Source: an uncultured archaeon (GTDB taxonomy: Archaea > Halobacteriota > Methanosarcinia > Methanosarcinales > Methanoperedenaceae). From it: DNA of 64,000 nt. The notes beneath the pieces are model-generated. The model ran no database searches, had not been told where the DNA came from, and saw nothing but the letters and a program-made list of their open reading frames with translations. This document shows, in pieces, positions 59,803 through 63,977 of the stretch; the stretch's first letter is position 1; each line of letters opens with the position of its first letter. Position numbers and translations under genes: made by a program. The stretch lies in assembly GCA_902386205.1 (NCBI GenBank), contig CABMIH010000041.1:1-64000 (forward strand), given 5' to 3'.

Positions 59803-62800
59803 TCATTTTTCCAGGGTATCAAGCCATACTTTATGTATGTTCTCTAACAAATTCTCTGCAGTATAAGGTTTTCTTAATACAGAAATTACACTTCTTTCAA
59901 CTTTTGAAAACATCTCTTCATCTATCAATCCGCTTACTGCTATGATCTTTATATCGGGGTCAATTTTCAAAAGGGCACGAATACAGGTGGGACCATCCAT
60001 AACTGGCATCGACATATCGATAAGAACAAGTTTTATCGCTTTTCTGTTCTTTGTGTATTGCAGGACAGCCTCAACCCCATCGCAGGCTGCGATTGTTTTA
60101 TAGCCGCAATCTTCCAGTATAGTACAGGTGGTCTCCCGGATTGGCGCTTCGTCATCAACTATAAGAATTGTTTCCCCATTTCCCCTGATAAGTTCGATGG
60201 GTTGCGCCTGTACTCCCTGCTTTTCGGTTTTTAATGCCGCGGGCAGATATACCTTGAATGTTGTTCCTTTTCCAACCACGCTTTGCACATCTATGAATCC
60301 GCCGTGGCTTTTCACAATTGTAAGTGCTGTTGGAAGGCCGAGCCCAGTGCCTTTGCCAAATTCCTTTGTCGTAAAAAACGGATCAAAGATCCTGTCCAGT
60401 ATTCTGGGAGGGATGCCTGTTCCGGTATCCGAGACTGAAATGACAACGTAAGAGCCGGCCCTGGCTTCGATATGCGTCTGTACATAATTCTCATCGATGA
60501 AAGAATTCTCAGCTGAGATACTTAAGGTTCCGCCTTCAGGCATGGCATCTCTCGCATTCACGCAGAGGTTCATAATAACCTGATGCAGTTGCGTGGCATC
60601 TCCTGAGATGGGAAAGAGGTCTTCTTTTATATCGGTTATAATTTCGATGTTTCTTGGAAATGCCACTTTTGCAATCTTCTCGATTTCAGATATGAGTTGA
60701 GCTGCCGCAACATGATTGCGTTCACCCTCTACCCCCCGTGTAAAAGATAGAACCTGCTTTATCAGATCAGCTCCGCGCCTTGTGTTCTGTTCAAGAACAG
60801 CAAGCAATTTCTGGCTTGACTCATCTTTGAATTTTTCTCTTAACATTTGCAGCGACAGCATCATCGGCGTCAGCATATTATTCAGGTCATGCGCAATACC
60901 ACCCGCAAGAGTGCCTATGCTCTCCATCCGCTGCGCTCGTAATAACTGCGCTTCAAGCATTTTCTTCTCAGTAATATCTTTGGCGATAACTGAGAGACCA
61001 GTCCCGGTCGGATAAGAATTGATTTCAAAAATGAATTTCTTGTCCCCAAGCTTGAACTCACTCTCTAAACGCTCAGGTTGCCGCATTTTTAATGATTTAA
61101 TATAGAATTTTTCAGCTTTTGTCCCTTTCACATCGGAGAAAAGCTCGTAGAGAGACTTTCCGATAGCATCTTTCGCCGAAATCCCTGTAAGAGCTTCAGA
61201 TGCCTTATTCCAGTAGGTATATCTTAAATCGCTATCCATCGCATAAAAAGGGTCGTCAATGCTTTCAGTAAGCTCCCTGTAGCTTGCTTCGCTCTCTCGC
61301 AATGCTTTGTTGGCCTCTTGCAGCTCTGCTGTCCGTTCCTGAACGTGTAGTTCTAACTCGTCATGTGCTTTTCGCAGTGCCTCCTCAATACGCTTGCGCT
61401 CGGTTATATCCTGCCAAAATACCGAGATTCCTTCTGCCGAAGGATAAACACGTATTTCATATGACTTATCCGTTAGTTTACCGTGCATTTCGAAATATTG
61501 CGGTTCATATTGTTGCATTGCCTTGCGGTAATATATTTCGTGCTCGGTACCCCTGATTGCTGGAAACATATCCCATATATTCTGTCCGATGAGGTCTTCG
61601 GGCTCAAGTTCCACGTTAGCTGCTGCACGCTGGTTTATATAGGTAAAGCGCCAGTCATTATCAATTGCCATAAAGCCATCCGTGATACTCTCCAGAATCT
61701 GAGATACCTTTTTGTTGCTGTGAGCTAATGCCTCCTCAACCCGTTTGCGCTCGGTGATGTCGCGGAAAACGAGTACCGCGCCTGTGGTTCTGCCATCTGG
61801 GTCTCTTATAGGCGCGCCGTTGTCATCGATAGGGATTTCAGTTCCGTCCTTCCTGACAAGAATTGTGTGGTTGGCAAGACCGGAAATCATCCCTTCCCTG
61901 AGCACCCTGATGACTGGATTTTCAACTTCAGAACGGGTATCCTCGTTCATGATATTGAATACCTCGGTCACAGGTTTTGCCAGAGCTTCAACCAGAGTCC
62001 ATCCGGTCAGTGCTTCAGCCACTGCATTCATGAAAGTTATCCTGCCATCAACATCAGCAACAATTACCGCATCGCCGATGCTTGACAGAGTGGTAGCATG
62101 GCGCTGTTCACTTTCCCGCAGTGCCTTTTCGGCCTGTGAATACTCTATCAGGTCCGCCACCTGTCGCGCCAGCAGGTCGATCCTCCAAAGATCATGCTCG
62201 TCGGGGGAATACGGAATACACCATTGGGTCGTGAGGATGCCCAGCAGCACGCCCGTGCGACTTATCATCGGTGTGGATTGCACAGCCCGTACCCCGGCCT
62301 CGCGCAATGTCGCCAGCGAAGGTGTCCCAACAAACAGTGGACTCTTCTCAACGTCGGGGACAATCACGCGCTCTTTGCTCATCATCGCATCCCCGCACGC
62401 CGATGCCTGATTTTCAGCAGACGCAAAGAACTCGAGAAATGGCTGTTGATGCCCGTGATGGGCGACGATCCGCAACGAACCGCTTTCAAGCAGTTGAAGG
62501 GTGCCCCGGTCGGCCTGCATAATGGCAACCGCCGCATCTATGATTTCCTGTAGCAGCGGCTGGAGTCCCCCCACTTCGAGAATCCGCCCGCTCAGCGCAT
62601 GCATTCGGTTGAGGGCGGCCAGATCCGCTGTTAGACGGCTCTCCACACTCTTGCGCTCACCAATTTCAACATTTAATTGTTCATTAATTTCGACAAGCTC
62701 TCTGGTTCTATCCTGAACTTTTATCTCCAATTCATCATGCGCTTTTTGCAGCGCCTCCTCAGCCCGTTTGCGTTCCGTTATATCCGTGGCAACAAGATAG

Positions 62801-63165
62801 GCAGCAGATAAGCCATCCAGCAGCATGGTGTTAACTGAAAGATGGACAGGTACGACTGTCCCGTCCCCTGCCAGGAATGTGACTTCTCCTTTGCTGCTGC
62901 CTGCCCTGCCCCGCTGCAGCAGTTCATTAAAAAACGGCCTGTCCCTGGATGAAACGAATTGTGAAATCCCTATCCCGATCATTTTTTCAAGCGGTTTCCT
63001 AAGCATGTCGGCAAAGCCCTGGTTGCAGTAAAAGATAGTGTTGTCTTCTGAGAGAGTTACGGCCCCCTCTTTCATTTTCTCCATAAGAACACGGTAGGGC
63101 CGCTCGGCACCTTTAAGAGTGTAAACCTGGTCGCCCTGTGGCGTTGAGACAACCAGTGCATCCAC
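59803..63165 (-). CDS. Hybrid histidine kinase (PAS-GAF-PAS-PAS-PAS-HisKA-HATPase-REC)
   Basis: From the first usable start, GTG at 63165, the protein has 1120 residues. In order: a PAS domain (about 20-135), a coiled coil, a GAF domain (about 190-345), three PAS domains (about 350-740), HisKA with GGIAHDLNN (His near 757), HATPase with GTGLGLPTALTIVKSHGG, and a C-terminal receiver with VLIDMSMPVMDG (Asp near 1050). No membrane helix: a cytoplasmic sensor. The frame stays open 36 codons further up, to 63273, adding RKRETKSKRELLLEIEKLSS and LRAIRSGEVDALVV, which belongs to the family. There an AGG stands six bases after GGAGGT, where ATG is expected. It follows kaiB. Confidence 0.92.
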   Translation of the reverse strand: MDALVVSTPQGDQVYTLKGAERPYRVLMEKMKEGAVTLSEDNTIFYCNQGFADMLRKPLEKMIGIGISQFVSSRDRPFFNELLQRGRAGSSKGEVTFLAGDGTVVPVHLSVNTMLLDGLSAAYLVATDITERKRAEEALQKAHDELEIKVQDRTRELVEINEQLNVEIGERKSVESRLTADLAALNRMHALSGRILEVGGLQPLLQEIIDAAVAIMQADRGTLQLLESGSLRIVAHHGHQQPFLEFFASAENQASACGDAMMSKERVIVPDVEKSPLFVGTPSLATLREAGVRAVQSTPMISRTGVLLGILTTQWCIPYSPDEHDLWRIDLLARQVADLIEYSQAEKALRESEQRHATTLSSIGDAVIVADVDGRITFMNAVAEALTGWTLVEALAKPVTEVFNIMNEDTRSEVENPVIRVLREGMISGLANHTILVRKDGTEIPIDDNGAPIRDPDGRTTGAVLVFRDITERKRVEEALAHSNKKVSQILESITDGFMAIDNDWRFTYINQRAAANVELEPEDLIGQNIWDMFPAIRGTEHEIYYRKAMQQYEPQYFEMHGKLTDKSYEIRVYPSAEGISVFWQDITERKRIEEALRKAHDELELHVQERTAELQEANKALRESEASYRELTESIDDPFYAMDSDLRYTYWNKASEALTGISAKDAIGKSLYELFSDVKGTKAEKFYIKSLKMRQPERLESEFKLGDKKFIFEINSYPTGTGLSVIAKDITEKKMLEAQLLRAQRMESIGTLAGGIAHDLNNMLTPMMLSLQMLREKFKDESSQKLLAVLEQNTRRGADLIKQVLSFTRGVEGERNHVAAAQLISEIEKIAKVAFPRNIEIITDIKEDLFPISGDATQLHQVIMNLCVNARDAMPEGGTLSISAENSFIDENYVQTHIEARAGSYVVISVSDTGTGIPPRILDRIFDPFFTTKEFGKGTGLGLPTALTIVKSHGGFIDVQSVVGKGTTFKVYLPAALKTEKQGVQAQPIELIRGNGETILIVDDEAPIRETTCTILEDCGYKTIAACDGVEAVLQYTKNRKAIKLVLIDMSMPVMDGPTCIRALLKIDPDIKIIAVSGLIDEEMFSKVERSVISVLRKPYTAENLLENIHKVWLDTLEK

Positions 63166-63285
63166 TTCGCCGCTTCGGATGGCGCGCAGGGTTTCCTCAG
63201 CCTCAGCTAACCGTGAACTGAGCTTTTCAATCTCAAGCAGGAGTTCCCTTTTTGACTTTGTTTCTCTTTTCCTAAAACTACCTCC

Positions 63286-63624
63286 TTATTTCTGCTTCAA
63301 ATCGAGCCCGAGAAGAATACGTTCTTTATCTGACATATCACCTATAAGTTTACGTAAAGGAAGAGGAATCTTCTTTATAAGCGTTGGGGCGGCGATTATC
63401 TGTTCATCTTTGGCAAGAACAGGCTGCTGGTAGATATCAATGACTTCAAGTTCGTATCGTCCTTTAAGATTCTCTTCACAAATCTTCTTGATGTTCAGGA
63501 CGGCCTTTGTGGATTTCGGTGTCATGCCTGTAACGTATAAACGCAGGACATATATTTCGTTCTCTTTTCCTTCAAGCAAATGTTCGAATTCTTCCGTACT
63601 GTTTTCTATTTCTGTTTCTTTCAT
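63286..63624 (-). CDS. kaiB: KaiB-domain protein
   Basis: The 112-residue protein has an acidic N-terminus, then the thioredoxin-like KaiB fold: IYVLRLYVTGMTPKSTKAVL, YELEVIDIYQQPVLAKDEQI, then IAAPTLIKKIPLPLRKLIGD and KERILLGLDL. In archaea KaiB partners KaiC-type ATPases and sensor kinases in signalling. Its TAA stop is followed by GGAGGT and the hybrid kinase frame in the same phase. AGAGGT precedes the ATG. No kaiC is in the window. Confidence 0.93.
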   Translation of the reverse strand: MKETEIENSTEEFEHLLEGKENEIYVLRLYVTGMTPKSTKAVLNIKKICEENLKGRYELEVIDIYQQPVLAKDEQIIAAPTLIKKIPLPLRKLIGDMSDKERILLGLDLKQK

Positions 63625-63665: not shown

Positions 63666-63977
63666 TTATCCTTTTGCGGGGCGCAGATCAAGACCCACAA
63701 GGACACGCTCGGTGTTGGAGAGGTCTCCGATTATTTTCTTTAAAGGTGGTGGAAGTTTTCGAACGAGCGTGGGAATGGCAAGAATCTGGTCTCCCCTGGC
63801 AAGCTGGGGATTCTTCAAAAGGTCTATTACCTCAATTGTATATTTGCCTGCAAGGTGTTTTTCACAGAGTTTTTTGAGATTGGCAAAGGCTAATAAGGAT
63901 TTAGGCGTAGCTCCTGCAACATAAAGCCTGAGTTCCCATGTATCAGGTTTTTCGGTTTTTTTTGTTATTTTATTCAT
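63666..63977 (-). CDS. kaiB: KaiB-domain protein, tandem copy
   Basis: The 103-residue protein has the same fold as the next gene: [40 protein letters not shown], then [20 protein letters not shown] and [14 protein letters not shown]. It has a short basic N-terminus instead of the acidic one of its neighbour. The gap to the second kaiB is 41 bases. The tandem pair suggests two different partners or a heteromeric assembly. The gene starts 23 bases from the right window edge; upstream genes, perhaps kaiC, are outside. Confidence 0.93.

Follow-up and report, generated by a model that had tools for sequence, protein, structure and literature searches.

We found that a hybrid sensor histidine kinase gene in the window (the whole 64,000-nucleotide stretch of DNA analysed) carries AGG at the position where its family has ATG. 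We put the probability at about 0.5 that this kinase gene is functional and would start at that AGG via a Shine-Dalgarno (SD) sequence, aided by ribosomes finishing translation of kaiB. The window belongs to genome G000, which was compared with G008, a sister species of the same genus; both are Methanoperedens-like, methane-oxidising archaea. The wider reading, in which AGG would be a natural and conserved archaeal start for low, kaiB-coupled synthesis of a kinase of the clock operon, with the SD compensating and a CUCC motif possibly regulating it, is held more tentatively, at slightly under even odds.

The kinase and the adjoining kaiB are read in one minus-strand frame and are parted by a single TAA, as a preliminary description of this DNA had it, and from that TAA the kinase frame is open to 59803 (1160 codons). 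The rest of its account of the junction was also confirmed on re-reading: the TAA is followed by GGAGGT, by a 6 nt spacer (AGTTTT, 63279-63274), by AGG and by 36 family-like codons before the first GTG at 63165. These 36 codons encode RKRETKSKRELLLEIEKLSSRLAEAEETLRAIRSGE. No in-frame ATG, GTG or TTG precedes this GTG in G000, and in both G000 and G008 the conserved N-terminus of the kinase lies upstream of every in-frame NTG. The features are collected in Table 1.

Table 1. Features of the kaiB-kinase junction and its operon in the window, and start positions in homologues.
Feature	Coordinates	Strand	Remarks
kaiB, copy adjoining the kinase, 112 aa	63286..63624	-	stop TAA 63286-63288; Pfam KaiB domain
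Second kaiB copy of the operon, upstream	63666..63977	-	Pfam KaiB E=1.4e-26
SD sequence GGAGGT, directly after the kaiB TAA	63280..63285	-	kept in G008 (GGAGGTGG)
AGG at the family's ATG position, proposed initiation codon	63271..63273	-	12 nt past the kaiB stop
CTG, rival start	63238..63240	-	sole near-cognate NTG shared by G000 and G008 between AGG and the constrained segment
GTG, first in-frame canonical start codon, rival start	63163..63165	-	36 codons after AGG
Hybrid sensor histidine kinase	59803..63273	-	N-terminal helix, PAS, GAF, PAS, HisKA, HATPase_c, receiver (Pfam)
ATG at the exact AGG codon, archaeal			G018, G003 first copy, G004, G013, G014 first copy, G024
ATG at the exact AGG codon, bacterial			four sequences (Deltaproteobacteria, Smithellaceae, Syntrophaceae)
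ATG one codon downstream of the AGG position			G017, G020, G021, G012, G003 second copy, G014 second copy, Nitrospirae sequence

The start was compared with those of 18 further homologues from archaea and bacteria, with positions counted gap-free from the conserved TLRAI motif, which lies 27 codons downstream of the AGG. All 18 have a canonical start. ATG stands exactly at the AGG codon in 10/18 and one codon downstream in 7/18, whilst Dethiobacter (1/18) has it four codons downstream; the second G014 copy additionally has GTG at the exact position. The look at related genomes that had been proposed thus places the AGG where ATG belongs, with the remaining starts within four codons. The tree joins G000 to G008 (support 90/88) amid canonical-start sequences. 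ATG was thus replaced by AGG, most simply once, in an ancestor that the two species share. A lost ATG and a non-AUG start, offered in the preliminary description as separate options, merge into a single history: an ancestral ATG became AGG and the gene was kept.

The kinase is present in 12 of the 31 genomes of the genus. The closest, G008, belongs to a different species; at protein level the first 195 residues are 74% identical. The DNA of G000 and G008 is 82.6% identical over the block comprising two kaiB genes and the start of the kinase, and 81.6% identical over kaiC. The G008 junction reads TAA GGA GGT GGT TTT AGG, again with no ATG, GTG or TTG ahead of the conserved N-terminus, and the pattern common to both species is TAA-GGAGGT-RGTTTT-AGG. 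From the end of the TAA through the AGG only one of 15 bases differs between the two; 41% of the synonymous sites of the gene differ, and if this rate is taken as neutral the conservation of the junction has P ~0.004. Further cases of AGG starts were found neither in the rest of the genus (31 genomes) nor in IMG/VR by protein search. A search of PLSDB gave bacterial homologues only, and the two examined both have canonical starts.

Comparison of these junctions indicates that G000 and G008 gained a strong SD. Pairing was computed against a generic anti-SD (AUCACCUCCU), assumed rather than read from the species' own 16S, because the 16S 3'-end pattern was looked for in the G000 and G008 assemblies and not found. 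On this basis the SD energy before the AGG is -11.4 kcal/mol in G000 and -15.6 kcal/mol in G008. The eight archaeal copies that directly follow kaiB have weak or absent SDs (+0.6 to -5.6 kcal/mol). The distance from kaiB stop to kinase start is 12 nt in G000 and G008 and -4 to +7 nt in those eight copies; set against a termination-reinitiation range of about -8 to +10 nt, the G000 gap is +12 nt. The SD may pair with CUCC at 63243-63240 (CTCC in kinase codons 11-12), whose letters are retained in G008, and the predicted minimum-energy fold uses this GGAG–CUCC pairing in G000 only. The CUCC could keep the SD covered as long as kaiB is untranslated, or could be there by chance. Kinase copies without kaiB directly upstream in G014 and G024 (L182 and L183) have a strong SD (-11 kcal/mol) and a normal ATG, which fits SD use where kaiB coupling is absent.

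We also examined how the stretch ahead of GTG 63165 evolves, noting that all substitution numbers in these blocks are small. In the 18 codons directly before the GTG, 5/5 differences between G000 and G008 fall at third positions (P=0.004) and dN/dS is 0.08. These codons are thus probably translated, judging from their substitutions, and a start at the GTG is unlikely. Over the codons following the GTG, dN/dS is 0.25. In codons 2-18 after the AGG, eight nonsynonymous and two synonymous differences give a dN/dS of ~1.2 on small numbers, and in ATG-bearing pairs the same codons give 0 to 0.48. In G008 a Leu-to-Pro change is found and the family's Ser in RSGEV is lost (Ser-to-Arg). Selection therefore provides no proof of translation for codons 2-18, and the start may instead lie at CTG 63240.

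Such a start, 11 codons past the AGG, would give a slightly shorter N-terminal helix. The CTG is retained in both species, has a modest SD-like AAGGG/AGGGG (-4.0 and -6.2 kcal/mol) and lies behind codons that look little constrained. We nevertheless consider it unlikely. G004, G013 and the second copy of G014, all ATG-bearing, have this CTG too and at a similar pairing energy, so it represents no new signal; constraint begins about seven codons after the CTG and not at it, and the gained GGAGGT would be left unexplained. A start at GTG 63165 or later, yielding a kinase minus its N-terminal 36 residues, is a little less likely again. Both species have this GTG, and no canonical start comes before it, but the coding-like evolution of the 18 codons ahead of it argues against it, it has no SD in G000 (-1.7 kcal/mol), and the codon is GTC or ATA in G017, G020, G021 and G013. 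The preliminary description had raised relatives whose kinase starts at this point; our search found none. We regard as equally doubtful that the start was lost in a decaying gene whose frame stays open by inertia. The missing ATG, the relaxed look of codons 2-18 and the Ser-to-Arg change in G008 would all suit decay. However, the two species are separated by ~0.6 synonymous changes per site, yet their kinase frames still run to 1160 (G000) and 972 codons with the catalytic domains retained. The constraint past the GTG likewise opposes decay, and the SD was gained, with none lost.

Readthrough of the TAA into a KaiB-kinase fusion had been proposed as well. Such readthrough, or a bypass of the UAA, with a product acting like SasA, is now disfavoured as quite improbable. 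In its favour, both species keep kaiB and kinase in one frame and lack a start codon for the kinase, and SasA joins a KaiB-like domain to a histidine kinase (PMC5520375). Against this, the UAA and the G that follows it are retained in both species, and the SD right behind the stop serves initiation. The check for fused proteins in relatives was negative: KaiB open frames span only 46-156 codons in 100 related genomes, which therefore hold no KaiB-kinase fusion. The phase of the two genes is not special, since the kaiB TAA is also in phase in G012, which has ATG, and the archaeal readthrough cases reviewed involve UGA and UAG (PMC8211752). Finally, the G000 assembly is in 88 contigs and the AGG might be a sequencing or assembly error. 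The identical AGG and SD in G008, a separate genome of another species with many flanking differences, makes this very unlikely, the least probable of these alternatives. Judged from the two assemblies, the AGG is a correct observation and no sequencing error.

AGG was rejected as a general start codon in G000. Genome-wide, GGAGGT-N5-7-AGG occurs at 60 sites and its reversed control pattern at 73, indicating no enrichment, whereas GGAGGT-N5-7-ATG is enriched (98 versus 41 for the control). We inspected thirty of the 60 SD-AGG sites, of which only the kinase site has a near upstream stop and a long frame with its first NTG far downstream; no other gene was found to start at SD-AGG among these 30. 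No dedicated initiator tRNA with anticodon CCU was found among the 39 tRNA genes of the genome, which is ~95% complete, and the initiator-like tRNA of G000 carries CAU. A tRNA left unnamed by ARAGORN (L218; G000 contig 12, 875-962) looks by eye like an intron-bearing elongator tRNA-Arg(CCU). A start in another frame followed by a frameshift was also rejected: no ATG or GTG is usably placed in both species, and the GTG within the SD of G008 is GTA in G000. When IMG/VR was searched at DNA level, the junction matched seven phage contigs. Six of these (L226, L228-L232) share TAAGGAGGTTGTTTTAGG before a conserved protein, with ATG two codons after the AGG and an unusually long SD spacing, and in the seventh the frame has four codons. 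With ATG so close behind the AGG in six and so short a frame in the other, the phage matches were taken as coincidental.

The kinase belongs to a kaiC-kaiB-kinase operon, in which a two-domain kaiC, kaiB and a PAS histidine kinase all run in one direction. The operon extends past the window to a third kaiB at contig position 64177-64482 and then kaiC, giving three kaiB genes in total, two of them inside the window. Its kinase has AGG in place of a canonical ATG, GTG or TTG start in both G000 and G008. The G008 kinase is a full open frame with an H-box (HDLNN) and a receiver. Between the sisters the kinases differ in their middle part, with GAF in G000 and other PAS units in G008 (59803-63273 versus L172), and both ends are retained, so sensor modules were exchanged. 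In the second kinase copy of G003 (L179, contig 29) a kaiC-like start (KGRPTLVCGSA) appears to run into the junction, which looks like a deletion of kaiC and kaiB.

AGG is among the weakest start codons tested; initiation from all 64 codons was reportedly the subject of a 2017 study by Hecht et al. In the reading favoured here, the ancestral ATG became AGG and the kaiB junction passed from a short gap with little or no SD to 12 nt with a full GGAGGT. We infer that the AGG would be put in the P site either by ribosomes ending kaiB at the UAA or by 30S subunits that the SD recruits, and that initiation would follow there. The initiator is presumably the ordinary Met-tRNAi, notwithstanding the second-base mismatch, so that methionine would be the initiating amino acid. 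The likely effect would be a low kinase yield that depends on translation of kaiB. Counted against a start at AGG are the dN/dS in codons 2-18, the unenriched SD-AGG pattern and the possible partial masking of the SD by CUCC. Stronger SDs are documented to go with weaker starts for GUG and UUG in prokaryotes (PMC5622118), and reinitiation in Haloferax at +13/14 nt retains 40-60% efficiency (PMC10666635).

Archaeal starts are given as AUG, GUG and UUG in a 2020 review (PMC7531240), and according to a 2021 review archaeal non-canonical translation is demonstrated in elongation and termination only (PMC8211752). Our literature search, which covered few subscription papers, found no prokaryotic gene with an AGG start. 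If true, initiation at AGG would offer a clean test of how far an SD and translational coupling can replace codon-anticodon pairing, with the ATG state visible in close relatives. Standard annotation would then put the kinase start 36 codons too far downstream.

Among known systems, bacterial infC starts at AUU, a non-NTG codon. Like the kinase AGG, it is evolutionarily kept and is none of ATG, GTG and TTG, but its mismatch lies at the third base and that of AGG at the second. Archaeal termination-reinitiation pairs have a short stop-to-start distance, often with involvement of an SD (PMC6728339, PMC10666635); compared with these, the 12 nt gap lies at the limit of efficient distances, and AGG would have to serve as restart codon. 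As in SasA, KaiB and a histidine kinase come from one locus, and the imagined readthrough product would resemble SasA; here, however, they are separate genes with their own stops, with no fused form in relatives. A comparable order of kaiC, one or two kaiB genes and then a kinase is found, for example, in operons of Cereibacter sphaeroides 2.4.1 plasmid pB and Pararhizobium qamdonense p3. Those bacterial kinases have the same N-terminal helix (EAEETL.AI..G.VDA) and lie near the end of kaiB or overlap it, but start with GTG or ATG, whereas the G000 kinase combines AGG with a 12 nt gap and an SD that was gained. Provisionally, the start codon is the new element in an operon type that is already known and annotated in bacteria.
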